Translations under genes and position numbers: made by a program
Notes under the pieces: model-generated
Database searches by the model: none
What the model was told of the DNA's origin: nothing
The model's input: the letters and a program-made list of their open reading frames with translations, nothing else
Assembly (NCBI GenBank): GCA_958296245.1
Contig: OY282458.1
Location: forward strand, 1,052,440 to 1,116,439
DNA length: 64,000 bases
Origin: an uncultured Dehalococcoidia bacterium
Lineage (GTDB): Bacteria > Chloroflexota > Dehalococcoidia > Lucifugimonadales > G958296245
Direction of reading: 5' to 3'
Shown: positions 42,994 to 51,943 of the stretch, in pieces
Numbering within the stretch: the stretch's first letter is position 1
Layout of the letters: each line of letters opens with the position of its first letter

Positions 42994-43011
42994 GCGGGTG
43001 AATTCACCCGC
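42994..43011. promoter_or_regulatory. Perfect 18-bp palindrome between convergent leuD and cupin genes
   Basis: GCGGGTGAATTCACCCGC lies one base after the leuD stop and 53 bases before the end of the convergent cupin gene. It can form a hairpin on either strand but has no T-run, so it may act as a bidirectional, Rho-assisted end or a protein site. Confidence 0.5.
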
Positions 43012-43064
43012 ACAGGGCATCCGCTTGGACCACGCCTCATCGCCGTCAGACAGGCCAGGGGCGT

Positions 43065-43436
43065 TCAGCTTCGGTTGACCCTTGCTGAGATGATCAGGTG
43101 CTCGATCCACTCCTCGCCGTCGTTGATGAGTTGGTGGCGTGACATGGGAGGGACGTGGACCGCGTCGCCTTTGGCGACCTCGTAAATGGCGTCGTCTATC
43201 TTCATCTTGCCTCGGCCGGCCGTGATGTAGTAGACCTGCTCCATGTCCTCGTGCAGGTGGTAGTCCCCGCTCTTGCGCCCCTGCATGGCGTGGTGGGTGA
43301 GGCTGAAGAAGCCTTCAAGGGGGGCTTCGTCGGCGGACAGCCCTTCGGCGCCCTTTTCCCTGAAGATGCTCCAAATGATGGCGCTCTCGTGCCCGACGTA
43401 GGGCGTAACGTCCTTCCAGCTTCGTACTACGGTCAT
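43065..43436 (-). CDS. Cupin-domain protein
   Basis: A 123-residue single-domain cupin. The two metal-binding motifs are 'GDYHLHEDMEQVYYITAGRG' (GxHxHxxxxE, one step altered) and 'GDAVHVPPMSRHQLIND' (GDxxxxPxxxxH). The ATG at 43436 is preceded by GGAGGA; longer frames run through serS and were rejected. A small-molecule-binding or isomerase/dioxygenase role is typical for this fold. It is 29 bases after serS and may be co-transcribed with it. The substrate cannot be told. Confidence 0.88.
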   Translation of the reverse strand: MTVVRSWKDVTPYVGHESAIIWSIFREKGAEGLSADEAPLEGFFSLTHHAMQGRKSGDYHLHEDMEQVYYITAGRGKMKIDDAIYEVAKGDAVHVPPMSRHQLINDGEEWIEHLIISARVNRS

Positions 43437-43465
43437 TGGCCTTCCTCCGGGGTTGAGTAGTCGGG

Positions 43466-44752
43466 TCAGTCGATGCGATCGAAGCCGGTGTAGGGGCGGA
43501 GAACGGGCGGCACGACGATCCCGCCGTCCGCCTGCTGGTAGGTCTCCATGATGGAGATCATGACCCTGGGTATTCCCAGCCCCGACCCGTTCAGGGTGTG
43601 GACGAACCTCGGCTGGGCCCCGCGTTCCGGCCTGTACCGGACGCGGGCCCGCCGCGCCTGGTAGTCGGTGCAGTTGGAGCAGGAGCTGACCTCCAGCCAC
43701 TCTCCGAGCCCCGGGGCCCACGTCTCGACGTCGTAGGTCTTGGCTGCGGCCCCACCCATGGAGCCGGAGGACAGCAGTTGTACCCTATGCCGGATGCCCA
43801 GCCTCTCGCAGACGCGCTCGGCGTCGGCCACGAGCTGTTCTAGGGCAGCGCCGGAGGCCTCCGGTTCGACGAACTTGAACAGCTCCACCTTCTCGAACTG
43901 GTGGACGCGCTTGATGCCACGGGTATCCCTGCCCGCCGCCGCCTTCTCGCGCCGGAAGCATGGCGTATGGGCAACGAAGCTAATCGGGACTTGAAAGGGG
44001 CCTGACTGTGCGCTGCATTCGGACAGGTCGAGGATCTCGTCTCGGAACAGATTGGCGATCGGCACCTCGGCGGTGGGAATCATCCACAGATCGTCCTCGT
44101 CGTCGCGGTACATGGTATCGGCGAACTTGGGCAGTTGGCCGCTCGCGGTGGCGGTGTCCCGGCTGACGAGGTCGGGCAGGTACAGTTCGACGTAACCATG
44201 CTCCTCCGCGTGCAGGTCAAGCATCCAGCTGATCAGCGCGCGTTGGAGCCTGGCTCCCTTGCCATTGAGTACGTAGAAGCGGGACCCGGAGAGCTTCACG
44301 CCCCTGCTGAAGTCGATGATGCCCAGACGCTCCCCAAGCTCCCAGTGCGGCAGCGGCTCGAAATCGAACTCGGGCGGCGCTCCGACTGTCCTAAGGAGCA
44401 GGTTCGCGTCGTCGTCCGGTCCCACGGGTACGCTATCGTCGGGGATGTTGGGTATCCCTAGCATCATCTCGTGCAGTTCGTCTTCCAGCTCCTTGATGCC
44501 TGTCGCAAGAGCCTTGATCCGCGAACCCACGGCGCGCATCTCGGCGATGAGCTCAGGGGGGCGCTCCTTGGTGCGTCCGAGCTGCCTGCTTACCTCGTTG
44601 CGCCGAGCGCGCAGCCGGTCAGCCTCGGCAATGGACGCGCGGCGCCGCGCGTCCACCTCCAGAAGCTGGTCTATGGGGGCTTCTCCCCCCCTCTTCCGGA
44701 TGGCGCTTCTCACCGCGTCGGGTTGGCTTCTAATGAGCTCAATGCTGATCAA
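43466..44752 (-). CDS. serS: Seryl-tRNA synthetase
   Basis: A 428-residue class II synthetase charging tRNA-Ser. The N-terminal long coiled coil (about 30-110, 'DRLRARRNEVSRQLGRTKE') grips the tRNA variable arm. Catalytic motif 2 is 'FRREKAAAGRDTRGIKRVHQ' and motif 3 is 'GSGLGIPRVMISIMETYQQA'. TTG start at 44752 gives the canonical 'ISIELIRSQPDAVRSAI' N-terminus. No T-box or other leader is visible upstream on the minus strand. It charges, among others, the tRNA-Ser encoded at 26657. Confidence 0.95.
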   Translation of the reverse strand: MISIELIRSQPDAVRSAIRKRGGEAPIDQLLEVDARRRASIAEADRLRARRNEVSRQLGRTKERPPELIAEMRAVGSRIKALATGIKELEDELHEMMLGIPNIPDDSVPVGPDDDANLLLRTVGAPPEFDFEPLPHWELGERLGIIDFSRGVKLSGSRFYVLNGKGARLQRALISWMLDLHAEEHGYVELYLPDLVSRDTATASGQLPKFADTMYRDDEDDLWMIPTAEVPIANLFRDEILDLSECSAQSGPFQVPISFVAHTPCFRREKAAAGRDTRGIKRVHQFEKVELFKFVEPEASGAALEQLVADAERVCERLGIRHRVQLLSSGSMGGAAAKTYDVETWAPGLGEWLEVSSCSNCTDYQARRARVRYRPERGAQPRFVHTLNGSGLGIPRVMISIMETYQQADGGIVVPPVLRPYTGFDRID

Positions 44753-44935
44753 CGGGCACCTCGATGCAGGGTCGGTAGGTATGAAGTATAACAGTCGAGA
44801 GCGGCTGTTCAGTGGTGAGAAGTGCAGGGAACCCCTTCTCGTCGTGATTCTGAGGAGCGCAGCGACGAAGAGTCAAAAGTCCGTGCGTACACGTCGGGCC
44901 GTCGGGGAATGGGCCGGCTCCTGCCCAGGGCGCGT

Positions 44936-44965
44936 TTGCGCCTGGGGCGCGAGGCGTGCTATATT
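44936..44965 (+). promoter_or_regulatory. Promoter of the small-peptide unit
   Basis: TTGCGC (44936-44941), 18-bp spacer, TATATT (44960-44965) with TG at 44957-44958. Transcription would start near 44972, about 24 bases before the peptide ATG. Confidence 0.5.
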
Positions 44966-44995
44966 ACGGCCTTCATAGGCAGGGGTGGGAATCCA

Positions 44996-45076
44996 ATGAC
45001 TATGCGGCCAATCGACGCGACCGGCGGTGACTCTAGGGTGTTCGGCCCTGGGAATAATGCGTTGGGGAGGAAGTAG
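44996..45076 (+). CDS. Candidate 26-residue peptide gene in its own promoter-terminator unit
   Basis: A short frame starting ATG at 44996 with GGGGTGGGAA 5-6 bases upstream, ending TAG. The C-terminal part reads 'GGDSRVFGPGNNALGRK', and the N-terminal part is Met/Arg/Pro-rich. Its promoter lies at 44936-44965 and a strong intrinsic terminator follows 24 bases after the stop, so the transcript would be about 165 bases. Downstream are a SAM methyltransferase and a heterodimeric ABC exporter. It could be a leader peptide, a small secreted or modified peptide, or a misread non-coding RNA. I know no matching family. Confidence 0.45.
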   Translation: MTMRPIDATGGDSRVFGPGNNALGRK

Positions 45077-45100
45077 GACTCCACGTCCAGACTGCTCTTG

Positions 45101-45138
45101 AAACAGCCTCCCTGCATCCGGGGAGGCTGTTTTTGTTT
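45101..45138 (+). terminator. Intrinsic terminator after the small-peptide frame
   Basis: A perfect 12-bp stem, AAACAGCCTCCC (45101-45112) with GGGAGGCTGTTT (45121-45132), 8-base loop, then TTTTTGTTT. It is by far the best intrinsic terminator in the window. It sits between the peptide frame and the methyltransferase, so it either ends a discrete small RNA or acts as an attenuator. Confidence 0.88.
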
Positions 45139-45225
45139 CCCCAAATTTCCGCGGACGGTAGGAGCCGTACACCGGCCGACCGACGCGCCCGCGCATGGTC
45201 GGACGGGATGGAAGGAGACGGACAG

Positions 45226-45969
45226 ATGAAGGGCTTCGAAGAGTCGACCTACGGGGATCGGATCGCGGAGGTGTACGACGAGATTCACGGCAGTTTGGGA
45301 AGCCCGGAGCGCGTCGATCCCGTGGTGGACGTGTTGGCGAGCTTGGCAGGCGGCGGGAGAGCCTTGGAGCTAGGGATAGGCACCGGCCGGGTCGCGTTGC
45401 CTCTGGCGGCCCGGGGTGTCGAGGTTCACGGCATCGACGCCTCTGCGGCCATGGTCGAGAAGCTGCTGCAGAAGCCGGGCGGCGATCGGATACCCGTCAC
45501 TCTGGGAGACTTCGCGGACGTAGACGTCGCTGGGCATCACTCGCTGGTATACGTGGTCTTCAACACGTTCTTTGCCCTACTCAACCAGGAAGCCCAGGTC
45601 CGCTGTTTCGGCAACGTTGCGCGCCGTCTGTCGGATGGCGGGGTCTTCCTGATAGAGGCATTTTCACCTGACCTGACGCGGTTCGTACGGGGTCAGAACA
45701 TCCAGGCGGGCTTGGTAGAGACCGACCGGGTTTCGATCGACCTGTCCCGTCACGATCCGGTCGAGCAGACCGTGGCGTCGTCCCACGTGTACATCACGGA
45801 GAGAGAGGTGCGGCTGTACCCGGTCAAGTTGCGCTACGCGTGGCCTTCCGAACTGGACTTGATGGCGAGGCTGGCGGGGATGAGGCTGCGGAGCCGGTGG
45901 AGCGACTGGCAGGGGAACCCGTTCACCGCGTCGAGCGCCAACCACGTCTCGACGTACGAGTTGCGCTGA
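45226..45969 (+). CDS. Class I SAM-dependent methyltransferase
   Basis: A 247-residue Rossmann-fold methyltransferase. SAM motif I is 'ALELGIGTGRVALPLAARG', with the acidic residue at the end of strand 2 in 'VEVHGIDASAAM'; post-I motifs 'GDFADVDV' and 'LVYVVFNTFFALL' follow. It has a beta-rich C-terminal half ('RLYPVKLRYAWPSELDLMAR'). ATG at 45226 with AAGGAG ten bases upstream; ATG at 45208 is an alternative. It lies 31 bases before the ABC exporter genes, probably one operon. The methyl acceptor is unknown. Confidence 0.88.
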   Translation: MKGFEESTYGDRIAEVYDEIHGSLGSPERVDPVVDVLASLAGGGRALELGIGTGRVALPLAARGVEVHGIDASAAMVEKLLQKPGGDRIPVTLGDFADVDVAGHHSLVYVVFNTFFALLNQEAQVRCFGNVARRLSDGGVFLIEAFSPDLTRFVRGQNIQAGLVETDRVSIDLSRHDPVEQTVASSHVYITEREVRLYPVKLRYAWPSELDLMARLAGMRLRSRWSDWQGNPFTASSANHVSTYELR

Positions 45970-46000
45970 AGCCCCGGACGGCCTGACGGCAGGCGAAGCT

Positions 46001-47776
46001 ATGGCAAGCGACATCGCGGCGGCATCGCGGCCCCGGTTGCCCCTGAGACGTTACGCCAACCTCCTGGTGACGTACCTGCGCCCCCAGAAGGCGCTCGTCG
46101 CTCTGGCGGCCGTCCTGCTCCTGGGTAACATCGGGCTGCAGCTCGTCAGCCCCCAGATACTGCGCTACTTCATCGACGCGGCGTTGGAGGGCAGCGCGGT
46201 CAGCCGCCTGGCCGTGATTGCGGTGGTGTTCACGGTCGCCGCCTTAGTGCAGCAGGCTGTCAACGTCGCCACGATCTACACGAGTGGACGTGTGGGCTGG
46301 GTCGCGACCAACGCGCTGCGCGGGGACTTGGCCCGCCATTGCATGAAGCTCGACATGTCCTTCCACAATCAGCACACCCCCGGGGAGATGATCGAGCGGA
46401 TAGACGGCGACGCCGAGCAACTTGGCAGCTTCTTCTCCACGTTCGTCATACACATACTGGGCAGCGCCATCCTCCTCACGGGCATCCTGGTTCTGCTCTT
46501 CCGCGAGGAGTGGAGGGCCGGCCTAGCGCTGACCGCCTTCGCGCTCGTCTTCCTGTTCGCGCTCTATCACATGCGCAACCTCACGGTGGACCGGTTCCGG
46601 GCGGTGAGGGAGGCGAGCGCCCAGACCTTCGGTTTCATCGAGGAGAGGCTTGGGGGGAAGGAGGACGTCCGCACCAGCGCCGCGCGTCCGCACGTGATGT
46701 TGGGGTTCCACAGCAGGATCCGGGACTGGTTCCGGAAGCAACTGATAGCGTCGCTGATGATCAGCTTGGTGCTAAACACGACCTGGTTTTCGTTCTCGGT
46801 CGGGACCGCCGTTTCACTGGGTCTCGGCTCGTGGCTGTTCCTGAACGGCCACGTTACAATCGGCGCGGTGTACCTGATCTTCCACTACACGCGGATGCTC
46901 GAGGAGCCTATCGAACGGTTTACTCAGCAGATCAACAACCTTCAGCGAGCGACGGCCAGTGTGATCCGCATACTGGACCTGCTGGACACCAGGCGGCAGG
47001 TGCTGGACGGGCCCGGGGTCCGCTTCCCGGAGGGGGCGCTGCCGGTGCGGTTCGAGGGCGTGACCTTCTGCTACACCCCCGGCGAGCCCGTGCTGCACGA
47101 CGTCTCCTTCGAGCTTGGGCCGGGCCGCGCTCTCGGGCTGGTGGGGCGCACCGGCAGCGGCAAGACGACGATGACGAGACTGCTGTTCCGGCTCTACGAC
47201 CCTGACCGGGGCCGCGTGCTCCTGGGCGGTCACGACGTACGTGACGCGCGGGTCGGAGAGCTGCGGGAGCAGGTCGGGGTCGTCACCCAGGACGTGCGGC
47301 TGTTCGAGGGCACCGTGCGCGACAACCTGACCCTGCTCGACCATCGCATCCCCGACGACCGTTTGGCCGCGGTCGTCGGGGAGCTCGGCTTGGGCGACTG
47401 GTATAGGGACCTGCCGGACGGCCTCGACACCATGCTGCACTCCGAGGGAGCGGGCATGTCGGCGGGCGAGGCCCAGTTGCTGGCATTCGCCCGCGTCTTC
47501 CTTCGGGACCCGCGCGTCGTCGTGCTGGACGAGGCGTCGTCGCGCATTGACCCCGGCACCGAGCGGCTGATCGAGCGCGCCGTGGACAGGCTGGTAGAGG
47601 GGCGGACGGTGATCGTGATAGCACACCGACTGTCGACCCTCGACCGCTGCGATGAGGTGATGGTCTTGGAGAGGGGGCGAGTCGTCGAGCACGGGGAGCG
47701 CGCGCGGCTGGCCGCGGATCCCGGGTCCAGGTTCCAACGGATGTTGGCCACCGACGCGCGGGAGACGTTGATATGA
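46001..47776 (+). CDS. ABC exporter half-transporter A (TMD-NBD)
   Basis: A 591-residue type IV ABC exporter with six transmembrane helices (about 30-320) followed by the nucleotide-binding domain. Walker A is 'GRTGSGKTT' and Walker B '[12 protein letters not shown]' with the catalytic Glu. The signature is degenerate: 'GMSAGEAQ' instead of LSGGQ. The partner gene overlaps its stop (ATGA). Together they should form a heterodimer exporting a hydrophobic or amphipathic compound or peptide from the cytoplasm. Confidence 0.93.
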
Positions 47777-49578
47777 GTGGGTGGCGTTCTCTGCTGCGGA
47801 TATCCTGGGCCCTGAAGTGGCCGCTGCTAACCGAGTTGCTTCTGCTCGTCTTCTGGCTGGTCGTCTTGGAGAACGGCGTTGCCCTGATCCAGCGGGAGAT
47901 ATTCGACCAGCTCACCGGCGAGGCGAGCGTCACGTTCGGCATATGGGAGCTATGCGCCATCCTGGTTGCCATCGGGGTGGTGACGTTCACCATATGGGTG
48001 GGGGGCGTGGTGCTTCACGACTACTCCTCCTTCAACATTGCCGCAATGCTGCAACGCAACGCCTTCTCTCACCTTATGGCGCTGCCGGGGCACCGCTCCC
48101 TGCCCGGATCTCCGGGCGAGGCGGTCAGCCGCTTCCGGGACGACGCACTGGTCGTCGCCACCTATATATCACAGTTCAAGTTCTTCGCGGCCCACATGGT
48201 GTTCCTGCCGACGGCGCTCTTCATCATGGCGCGCACCGACGCGGTGATGACGTTCGGCGTCTTCATCCCCATATTCATCATAGTGATCGTCGTCAACATG
48301 GTGCGGGGGCGTATTCAGCTATACCGGAAGGAGAGCCGGGAGGCCACGGGCGGCGTGACTGGTTTCATCGGCGAGATGTTCGGCGCAGTCGAGGCCGTCA
48401 AGGTTGCGAACGCCGAGGGTCGGGTGCTGGGGCGTTTCGACGCGCTCAACGCCGAGCGCAAGAGAACGACCCTCAAGGACACGCTGTTGAGCGAGACGCT
48501 CGGGGCGGTCTTTTCCAACATCCAGAACATCGGCACCGGGTTCGTGATAATCGCGGCGGCCCGGTCCTTGGGCTCGGGGAGCTTCTCAGTCGGCGACCTG
48601 TCGCTGTTCGTGTACTACCTGGGTTGGACCCAATGGATGGCCTCCGAGGTGGGCAAGACCCTGATTCAGTACCGGCAGGTCGGCGTGTCGCTGGACCGGC
48701 TGCGCGAGATGATGCCCGGCGCTGAGCCGGCGGAGCTTGTGCGAAGGCGCCCCAGCCACCTCTTCGGGCGGATGCCGGAAGTGCCCTTCACGCCCAAGGC
48801 GGACGCGGACCGGTTCGAGTCCCTGGAGGTCTCGGGGCTAACGTACCTGCACCCCGGATCGGGGCGCGGCGTTCGCGGGGTGGACCTGCGGCTGCGGCGC
48901 GGCAGCTTCACCGTGGTCACAGGGCAAATTGGCTCCGGCAAGACGACGTTGCTGCGGACGCTCATGGGCTCGCTGCCGAGTCAGTCGGGCGAGATCAGAT
49001 GGAACGGCGCCGCCGTAGACAAGCCGGACGAGCTTCTCGTTCCGCCCCGCTGTGCCTACGTGCCGCAGGCGCCCCGGCTGTTCAGTGAGGAACTGCGCGC
49101 CAACATCCTGCTGGGGCTGCCTGAATCGAAGGTCGATCTGGCCGGCGCGATCCGGACGGCAGTCATGGAGCGCGACGTGGAGGGGTTGGAGAATGGACTC
49201 GACACCGTCGTGGGGCCCCGCGGCGTCCGGCTGTCCGGCGGCCAGGCGCAGCGAGCGGCGGCGGCCCGCATGTTCGTCAGGGCGCCCGAGCTGCTGGTGT
49301 TCGACGACGTGTCGAGCGCGTTGGACGTTGAGACGGAGCGGGAGTTGTGGCGGCGGGTACTGGGGCTGGAGGGGACTACGAGCCTCGTCGTCTCCCATCG
49401 CCGCGCGGCCTACCGCGCCGCCGACCACATAATCGTGCTGGAGGACGGCAGGGTGGAGGCGGAGGGCGAGCTCGACGACCTGCTGCGCACCTCCGAGGAG
49501 ATGCGGCGGCTGTGGGCGGGCGACGTAGGCGTTACGGACGCGCCGGCGCCCGATGCAGGCGAGAGCGCCAGACCATAG
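47773..49578 (+). CDS. ABC exporter half-transporter B (TMD-NBD)
   Basis: A 601-residue partner of the upstream half-transporter. Six transmembrane helices precede the NBD, with Walker A 'GQIGSGKTT' and a canonical signature '[15 protein letters not shown]'. Walker B reads '[12 protein letters not shown]', with Asp in place of the catalytic Glu. So the half-site built from this Walker B and the partner's altered signature is degenerate, while the other is consensus, the pattern of TM287/288-type heterodimers. It is followed by a Kelch lipoprotein with its own promoter. Confidence 0.93.
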
Positions 49579-49657
49579 CGCCACGGTGAGGAAGGGAGGC
49601 GTAACGCCCTCGGTCCTTGGGCGGGTCTCCACAGCCTCCCCAGAACGTCAAGGCTCA

Positions 49658-49666
49658 TGGTATGAT
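49658..49666 (+). promoter_or_regulatory. Extended -10 upstream of Kelch lipoprotein gene
   Basis: TG-G-TATGAT, 37 bases before the ATG at 49703. No clear -35. Confidence 0.4.
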
Positions 49667-49702
49667 TGCCCAGAGCATCTACACGGCCCACGGAACGCGG
49701 CG

Positions 49703-50932
49703 ATGCGTTGTGCCCCAGCGATCGTGACGCTCCTGACTCTACTGCTCACCGCAGGGTGCGCGTCCCCTGAGACTGCCATCCAACCCCCGGATGGCGCCGC
49801 CACGGCAGCCCCGGCTACCCCCACTCCGACCCCTTCGGCAGCGGAAAGCCCCGAACCCATCGACAACATGTCGAAAGCCCGTACGGTCCCAGCCGCGGCC
49901 ATGCTGGATGACGGCAGGCTGCTGATCGCCGGAGGCGCCAACGGGTACGTAATCTACGCCTCAGCCGAGGTGTACGATCCTGCTACCGGCAACTGGTCTT
50001 CCGCCGGCCAGATGGCGGAGCCGAGGGCGTACTACCATACGGCCACTCGCCTAGCCGACGGCGGCGTGCTGGTTACCGGGGGGGTCAGAGACCAGACCTT
50101 CACCGTGCTGGACACGGCGGAGATATACGATCCCGCTGCCGGGACGTGGACGCCAACGGGCAGCATGGCTCACCCCAGGCAGTTCCACACGGCAACGCTG
50201 CTACCCGACGGCAGGGTGCTGGTGGCCGGAGGCCGGTCAGGCCCGCAGACGCTCCTCGCGTCGGCTGAGATCTACGACCCCGCCACCGGCGCTTGGACTC
50301 CCACGGGAGGGATGCTGATCCGCAGGGACTCGCATACTGCGACCCTGCTACCCGACGGCAGGGTGCTGGTGGTGGGAGGCCGGAGTGACCTCCGGCTCCT
50401 CTCGTCGGCGGAGATGTACGATCCCTCCACCGGCGCTTGGATGCCCGCAGGCGGCCTGCGCTTCGGGAAGGACTTCCACACGGCAACGCTGCTACCCGAC
50501 GGCAGGGTGCTGTCGGCAGGCGGGAGAGGGGACAACGCCGCCGATAAGACCGACACGATCCACGACCACGCCGTCGATACCGCCGACGTGTACGACCCGT
50601 CGACGGATGAGTGGTCCCCCACCGGCAGCATGAACAGCACGCGCTCCACGCATACGGCGGTGCTGCTCGCCGATGGGACCGTGCTCGCCGTTGGAGGGGG
50701 TAACGATAAGCAGAGTACCCTCGCGTCCGCTGAGATCTACGACCCGGCAATCGGCGCCTGGTCCCCCGTGAGCGACATGGATAATGGGCGCCAGTTCCAC
50801 GCTATGGCGCTGCTGGAGAACGGACACGTAATCGTGGTGGGCGGCGCGGACGGAGCGCACGTAACCATCTCCTCCGCAACCGCGTACGACCCGATCGCGG
50901 ATAGTTGGTCCCCCTCCGGTCCCACCTATTGA
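49703..50932 (+). CDS. Kelch-repeat beta-propeller lipoprotein
   Basis: A 409-residue exported lipoprotein. The signal peptide 'IVTLLTLLLTAGCAS' ends in a clean LTAGC lipobox. After a short Pro/Thr linker come seven Kelch repeats of about 45 residues (motif HTATLLPDGRVLVxGG...SAEIYDPATGxWxPxG), enough for a closed seven-bladed propeller. Two of the longest DNA repeats share identical stretches such as GCTACCCGACGGCAGGGTGC. The ATG at 49703 is chosen because the signal peptide starts there; the longer frame overlaps the ABC gene. Probably a surface binding protein of unknown ligand. Confidence 0.92.
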   Translation: MRCAPAIVTLLTLLLTAGCASPETAIQPPDGAATAAPATPTPTPSAAESPEPIDNMSKARTVPAAAMLDDGRLLIAGGANGYVIYASAEVYDPATGNWSSAGQMAEPRAYYHTATRLADGGVLVTGGVRDQTFTVLDTAEIYDPAAGTWTPTGSMAHPRQFHTATLLPDGRVLVAGGRSGPQTLLASAEIYDPATGAWTPTGGMLIRRDSHTATLLPDGRVLVVGGRSDLRLLSSAEMYDPSTGAWMPAGGLRFGKDFHTATLLPDGRVLSAGGRGDNAADKTDTIHDHAVDTADVYDPSTDEWSPTGSMNSTRSTHTAVLLADGTVLAVGGGNDKQSTLASAEIYDPAIGAWSPVSDMDNGRQFHAMALLENGHVIVVGGADGAHVTISSATAYDPIADSWSPSGPTY

Positions 50933-50935
50933 GAC

Positions 50936-51943
50936 CTACCCGCCGATGTGGTACATCTCGACCTTCTCGCGGGGAGGCTCGGTCATGGAGGCGCGCTCCT
51001 CGGAGTAGCGGTCCTTCCTAGACCCCCAGCGCCGGGAGGCCATGTCCGCCAGTTCCGCGTCGGACGCTCCGGCCCTCAACGGCCCTCGCAGGTCCATCCC
51101 AAGGGACGCAAACAGACACGTGTAGATGCTGCCATCCGGCGAAAGCCTCAGGCGGGTGCAGTCTCCGCAGAACGGCTTCGTCACCGACGCGATGACGCCG
51201 ATCTCGCCGTCGCCGTCCCTATAGCGGTACCGCTCGGCCACCTCCCCCCGGTAGCTGCTCTCGACCGGCTCCAAGGGCATCTCGGCGTCTATCATCGACA
51301 CCATTTCGTCCGCGGAGACCACGTGGTCCAGCCTCCAGCCGTTCAGGGTCCCGACGTCCATGTATTCGATGAACCGGACGACGTGGCCGCGCTCTTTGAA
51401 GTATCGGGCGAGGCTCACGATGGTGTGGTCGTTGACGCCTCTCTGCACGACCGCGTTGATCTTGATGGGATCTAGGCCAACCTTCTCGGCTGCCTCGATA
51501 CCCTCCAGCACCCGTCGAGGGCCGAAGCCGCGCCCGTTCATCCGGGCGAAGACCTCCTCGTCCAGGGAATCGAGGCTGACGGTCAACCGCCGTAGACCGG
51601 CGTCCTTGAGCGCCTGTGCCTTCTGCGCCAGCAGGTATCCGTTGGTGGTCATCGCCAGGTCCCGGATGCCTTGGACGCCTGCAAGCCGTCGGATCAGGCG
51701 CTCTACCTGGTTCCTGACGAGGGGCTCGCCGCCCGTGACACGCACCTTCACCGCCCCAAGTCCGGCCATGATACCTGCCAGTCTCGTTATCTCTTCGAAT
51801 GTCAGCAGGTCGGCCTTTGGCAAGAACTGATAGCGGTCGCCGTATATCTCCTCGGGCATGCAGTATGGGCAGCGGAAGTTGCACCGGTCGGTGATCGAGA
51901 TCCGTAGGTCTCGGAAGGGCCTGCCAAGCTTGTCGGTAGTCAT
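50936..51943 (-). CDS. moaA: GTP 3',8-cyclase MoaA
   Basis: A 335-residue radical-SAM enzyme making the first intermediate of molybdopterin synthesis; MoaC, encoded in the fusion at 4902-5831, acts next. The SAM cluster is 'DRCNFRCPYCMP' (CxxxCxxC), followed by 'VRVTGGEPLVR'. The second cluster uses 'KPFCGDCTRLRLSPDGSIYT' plus a later Cys. The C-terminus ends in the catalytic GG ('YHIGG'). ATG at 51943 overlaps the rdgB stop (ATGA), so both are co-translated. Convergent with the Kelch gene, three bases apart. Confidence 0.95.
   Translation of the reverse strand: MTTDKLGRPFRDLRISITDRCNFRCPYCMPEEIYGDRYQFLPKADLLTFEEITRLAGIMAGLGAVKVRVTGGEPLVRNQVERLIRRLAGVQGIRDLAMTTNGYLLAQKAQALKDAGLRRLTVSLDSLDEEVFARMNGRGFGPRRVLEGIEAAEKVGLDPIKINAVVQRGVNDHTIVSLARYFKERGHVVRFIEYMDVGTLNGWRLDHVVSADEMVSMIDAEMPLEPVESSYRGEVAERYRYRDGDGEIGVIASVTKPFCGDCTRLRLSPDGSIYTCLFASLGMDLRGPLRAGASDAELADMASRRWGSRKDRYSEERASMTEPPREKVEMYHIGG

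Follow-up and report, generated by a model that had tools for sequence, protein, structure and literature searches.

In the bmrB-bmrC/bmrD system of Bacillus subtilis, a translated leader ORF, an intrinsic terminator, an antiterminator and a predicted anti-antiterminator precede the genes of a heterodimeric ABC exporter; lincomycin triggers readthrough, for which translation of the leader is required (PMC4191407). In tlrB (yxjB) of the same species, a 9-residue leader peptide with an RYR stall motif at its end and an intrinsic terminator lie 5' of the gene for a 23S rRNA methyltransferase (PMC6851288). In Escherichia coli, the toiL uORF is a short upstream ORF that reports ribosome stalling (PMC12121999). 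CcbJ and LmbJ are N-methyltransferases of lincosamide biosynthesis, and we found no description of the leader presented here in the open-access literature.

We analyzed a window of 64,000 nucleotides from an uncultured Dehalococcoidia bacterium, whose genome is a single 2.69-Mb contig. The window holds a short unit that resembles bmrB-bmrC/bmrD in combining a leader ORF, presumably translated, with an intrinsic terminator, a possible antiterminator and, in some relatives of the unit, a predicted anti-antiterminator, and in having a heterodimeric ABC exporter downstream. It differs in that the terminator follows the ORF, of 26 codons, whereas that of bmrB lies inside the ORF, and in that the conserved first gene encodes a CcbJ-type methyltransferase, the exporter being linked in one genome only. 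With tlrB the unit shares a leader peptide and an intrinsic terminator 5' of a methyltransferase gene, but its enzyme is one of the CcbJ small-molecule family, and the leader has no conserved R/K-X-R/K motif. The likeness to toiL would lie in a short upstream ORF that reports ribosome stalling, but the targets of toiL are a ribosome-binding site and Rho-dependent termination rather than an intrinsic terminator. In our reading of the sequences, the best explanation of the unit is a leader-peptide, ribosome-dependent transcription attenuator in front of the methyltransferase, which we consider probable.

The unit and the genes downstream

All features of the unit and the genes that it precedes lie on the forward strand, downstream of serS on the opposite strand. 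The promoter, ribosome-binding site and 26-codon frame described in the first-pass annotation were all present in the sequence. The sigma-70-like promoter with extended -10 (44936-44965) consists of TTGCGC (44936-44941) and TATATT (44960-44965), separated by an 18-nt spacer with TGC at its end. It is weak compared to consensus and was missed by a simple promoter scanner; relatives carry a -10-like TAGGAT at the matching position. The Shine-Dalgarno-like GGTGGG (44984-44989), 6 nt 5' of the leader start, is weak or absent in two of the related leaders (G077 and G089). The leader ORF runs from an ATG at 44996 to a TAG ending at 45076 and encodes MTMRPIDATGGDSRVFGPGNNALGRK.

The ORF is followed by the terminator CAGCCTCCC...GGGAGGCTG-TTTTTGTTT (45104-45138), which had been called the strongest intrinsic terminator of the window. 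A scan of the whole 64 kb bore this out, with -25.9 kcal/mol compared to -12.2 kcal/mol for the runner-up. A generic terminator scanner missed it, probably because the stem extends into the U-tract.

As annotated, a methyltransferase gene and two coupled ABC genes come next. The methyltransferase (45226-45969), the presumed target of attenuation, is a SAM-dependent enzyme (Pfam Methyltransf_25) of the CcbJ/LmbJ N-methyltransferase family; the profile of its family aligns with CcbJ (4hgy) at positions 1-243 of 245 (E=1.2e-66). We did not see a lincosamide biosynthesis gene beside it. The first exporter subunit (46001-47776) has the Walker B motif VVVLDE and the non-canonical signature SAGEAQ. 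Its degenerate partner (47773-49578), whose gene overlaps by 4 nt, has the signature LSGGQ and the Walker B motif LLVFDD, with D in place of the catalytic E, so that the pair has one degenerate site. Directly 3' of the exporter, and likewise on the forward strand, lies a gene for a Kelch-repeat protein (49673-50929).

The first-pass annotation offered two options for this arrangement, attenuation of the exporter operon or a modified or exported peptide system of the RiPP type. In the latter, the frame would encode a precursor that the adjacent enzyme methylates and the ABC pair secretes. Peptide, methyltransferase and exporter do lie side by side, the next-best solved relatives of the methyltransferase are YunM (5e-24) and CypM (1e-23), and a daptide methyltransferase profile matches the enzyme weakly (67 bits vs a cut-off of 175). 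Against the RiPP option, CcbJ, which is the best solved relative, is an N-methyltransferase of small molecules, and the flanking genes that we scanned encode no protease or recognition domain, in agreement with the annotation, which had seen neither a leader-peptide recognition domain nor a peptidase.

Association of the unit with the methyltransferase

The unit is beyond chance. Eight other genomes of uncultured Chloroflexota, two from the order of the window and six from one family of another order, hold intact copies in the same place, 5' of orthologous methyltransferases. Among the order relatives there were about 24 close methyltransferase orthologs (45-66% identity), and those of G077 (= L154) and G089 (= L063) had a 26-codon frame and a terminator in front. 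A scan of named genomes with the methyltransferase alignment identified L119, L121, L126 and L131, and a search of the family holding these four added L223 and L224. The nine loci represent about three lineages.

Searches with the unit itself were less productive. At the DNA level, 97 order relatives returned chance matches only, for example within a peptidase gene, and the leader peptide returned noise (E 0.14-1). A covariance model trained on the window and six relatives scored 96 bits on the window and 135-163 bits on the other loci, including L223 (157 bits) and L224 (148 bits), which were outside the training set, with one strong match per genome. When the model was run class-wide, all matches apart from the window were weak (23-36 bits) and resembled generic terminators. 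We ruled out a dispersed repeat, as the 18-mer at the ORF end was no commoner elsewhere than its reversed control. Methyltransferase relatives of 51-63% identity also occur in Pseudonocardia, Parafrankia, Hyphomonas and Streptomyces (L136, L147, L171, L175-L178), with no leader match at these loci where the covariance model was run.

The genes further upstream differ between loci (serS in the window, panC/surE in G077 and G089, a cupin-type gene in L119, L121 and L126), suggesting that leader and methyltransferase travel together. The leader has a patchy distribution in the methyltransferase tree, requiring at least three changes, and the nearest relatives of the window enzyme (L111-L115) lack the leader. 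L134 carries a degenerate leader (2875-2969), in which regions 2-4 (defined below) are kept, the ORF start is deleted and most of the ORF is lost; it is fused to the end of a cupin-type gene.

Attenuation of the exporter, as proposed in the first-pass annotation, would predict the unit before homologous exporters. It was absent before those examined and goes with the methyltransferase instead. The exporter adjoins the methyltransferase in the window only and not in the other eight of the nine loci, although contig ends limit some of these. An exporter pair in another family of the order (G010; 82 and 81% identical) came with no leader and no methyltransferase within the stretches that we inspected, and the same was true of exporter pairs of about 50-60% identity in G062, G077, G089 and G031. 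In G077 there are four paralogous exporter pairs (L247, L248, L250, L253), with first subunits 56-59% identical to that of the window, and none of the four has a leader. The unit is thus tied to the methyltransferase, and the exporter is not its conserved target but merely lies downstream in the window. There, the leader could serve the exporter by co-transcription across a gap of 31 nt and then the 4-nt overlap. The RiPP option is at odds with the same comparison, since the exporter is not beside the methyltransferase at the other loci and the exporter orthologs come without peptide and methyltransferase.

The spacing to the methyltransferase bears on another explanation, that of a self-contained small gene or sRNA with its own terminator, next to a methyltransferase with its own promoter. 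The unit is bounded by promoter and terminator, and the window has a gap of 87 nt from the end of the U-tract to the methyltransferase start, which may hold a second promoter. In the relatives, however, the U-tract starts only 38-42 nt before the methyltransferase, which leaves no room for another promoter, so that their methyltransferase must rely on leader readthrough. Each copy found, moreover, sits 5' of this particular methyltransferase. We therefore regard a free-standing small gene or sRNA as very unlikely.

Conservation of the frame and of the RNA arms

The frames of the nine loci read VASFFPTTTNGSAPAGAPWRGAEGRS (L119), VACSFPTMTTSPAPAGAPRRGAEGRS (L121), VACFFSSTTTTSGPVPTDTPRRGAEGRS (L126), VASFFPTMTTSPAPAGAPRRGAEGRS (L131), VACLFSTVTNSPAPAGAPRRGAEGRS (L223), VANSFSTVTKGPAPAGAPRRGAEGRS (L224), MTRYFPTNDNNPSPAPAPRNFALGRT (G077), MTRYFPTNDSNPSAAPAPRHFTLGRT (G089) and that given above for the window, an initial V denoting a GTG start. 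All share the same stop and an inferred common start, with starts further upstream possible in some relatives; three loci begin with ATG and six with GTG. L126 has a frame of 28 codons and the other eight loci have 26, and the sole indel is 6 nt, a multiple of three; a 1-nt deletion in L131 falls upstream of the leader start codon. No other frame is open throughout the nine loci, with stops in the +1 frame in seven of them and in the +2 frame in five. Conservation of the frame, which had been proposed as a check, was thus found, and the peptide itself appears nearly free to change. The pN/pS ratio was 0.74 for the whole frame and 0.92 for codons 8-20, both from few sites, suggesting that the frame is kept while the peptide sequence is hardly constrained. 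An open frame of 26 codons is not rare in GC-rich DNA, which counts against reading it as a leader.

Four regions of the RNA were distinguished. Region 1 (UCGACGC, 45012-45018), a candidate from the predicted fold, could pair with 45059-45065. Region 2 (GGGGAGG, 45064-45070) covers the last codons (L-G-R) before the stop; its GGGGAG is invariant in nine of nine loci and complementary to region 3, making it a putative antiterminator arm. Region 3, the terminator 5' arm CAGCCTCCC (45104-45112), has a CCTCCC core that is likewise invariant in all nine, and region 4 (45121-45138) comprises the terminator 3' arm and the U-tract. The terminator helix 3:4 is conserved and includes two pairs with changes on both sides.

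The antiterminator helix 2:3, which shares the terminator 5' arm, is possible in all nine loci. GGGGAG and region 3 (CUCCCC in the relatives, CUCCCU in the window) pair in 54 of 54 cells, and every slid register pairs fewer, the invariance of the arms meaning that they cannot show covariation. When 2:3 was forced in a transcript that stops short of arm 4, the penalty relative to the minimum-energy fold was only 0.6-3.6 kcal/mol for G089, L119, the window and G077; for L121, L126 and L131 it was 7-13 kcal/mol. The 1:2 helix is 83% paired, with a C/U exchange in region 1 opposite G. The predicted folds of L119, L126 and G077 have a long helix between region 2 and the early codons, in a stretch that compared favorably with shuffles (z -3.62, -3.06 and -3.48, respectively). 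The fold is weak in L223 (z -1.17) and L224 (z -0.26), and in the window the pairing is no better than in shuffled sequence (z +0.69). The predicted folds thus support a 1:2 protector arm for part of the family only.

A hardly constrained peptide next to invariant RNA arms argues against the RiPP option. On the few sites available, the leader peptide changes almost freely, with no sign of purifying selection, and together with the exporter comparison this makes a RiPP precursor, or any functional product of the frame, very unlikely. The same contrast between peptide and arms would suit an RNA-only attenuator that senses a ligand or a protein, in which the open frame is incidental. Such a device leaves unexplained why a single frame is kept open from a shared start to a shared stop, at equal length but for one indel of two codons, and why ATG and GTG replace each other at its start. 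In addition, the stretch between the arms is not conserved across lineages, unlike an aptamer, and Rfam models gave no match up to E 5 across 43000-51000. We consider an RNA-only attenuator unlikely.

The first-pass option of attenuation is thus supported, for the methyltransferase rather than the exporter, by the conserved frame, by the antiterminator/terminator geometry and, in the relatives, by the position of the terminator just 5' of the start of the next gene.

Proposed attenuation and its possible signal

We infer that the mini-ORF is translated while it is being transcribed. In normal reading, the ribosome would end at the stop codon over region 2, so that the antiterminator could not form, the terminator 3:4 would fold, and transcription would stop before the methyltransferase. 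A ribosome stalled early in the ORF would leave GGGGAG of region 2 free to pair with CUCCCC of region 3 and thereby pre-empt the terminator. The methyltransferase, and in the window genome also the exporter, would then be expressed. In several relatives, the 1:2 helix would hold off readthrough from untranslated RNA.

As for the signal, we considered a sensor of a specific amino acid, with Phe or Pro control codons. F-P is common in the leaders of the relatives, but the window has no FP, and region 1 swaps amino acids yet keeps pyrimidines; such a sensor is therefore not favored. The inducers are probably ribosome-targeting compounds. Three points make a drug our favored guess: the family of the enzyme, the exporter downstream and the changing amino acids of region 1.

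A fuller scenario, tentative and in our view doubtful, is a resistance operon in uncultured Chloroflexota of marine and sponge-associated origin, in which the attenuator would sense a ribosome-targeting natural product, the N-methyltransferase would modify the compound, and in the window genome the pump would expel it.

If the attenuator reading is true, the unit represents an undescribed attenuator family, without an Rfam model, in a large uncultured lineage. The attenuator reading would further suggest that ribosome disturbance induces CcbJ-type methyltransferases outside antibiotic producers, in keeping with a role in resistance. The locus is also a caution against inferring a peptide natural-product locus simply from a row of small peptide, modifying enzyme and exporter.
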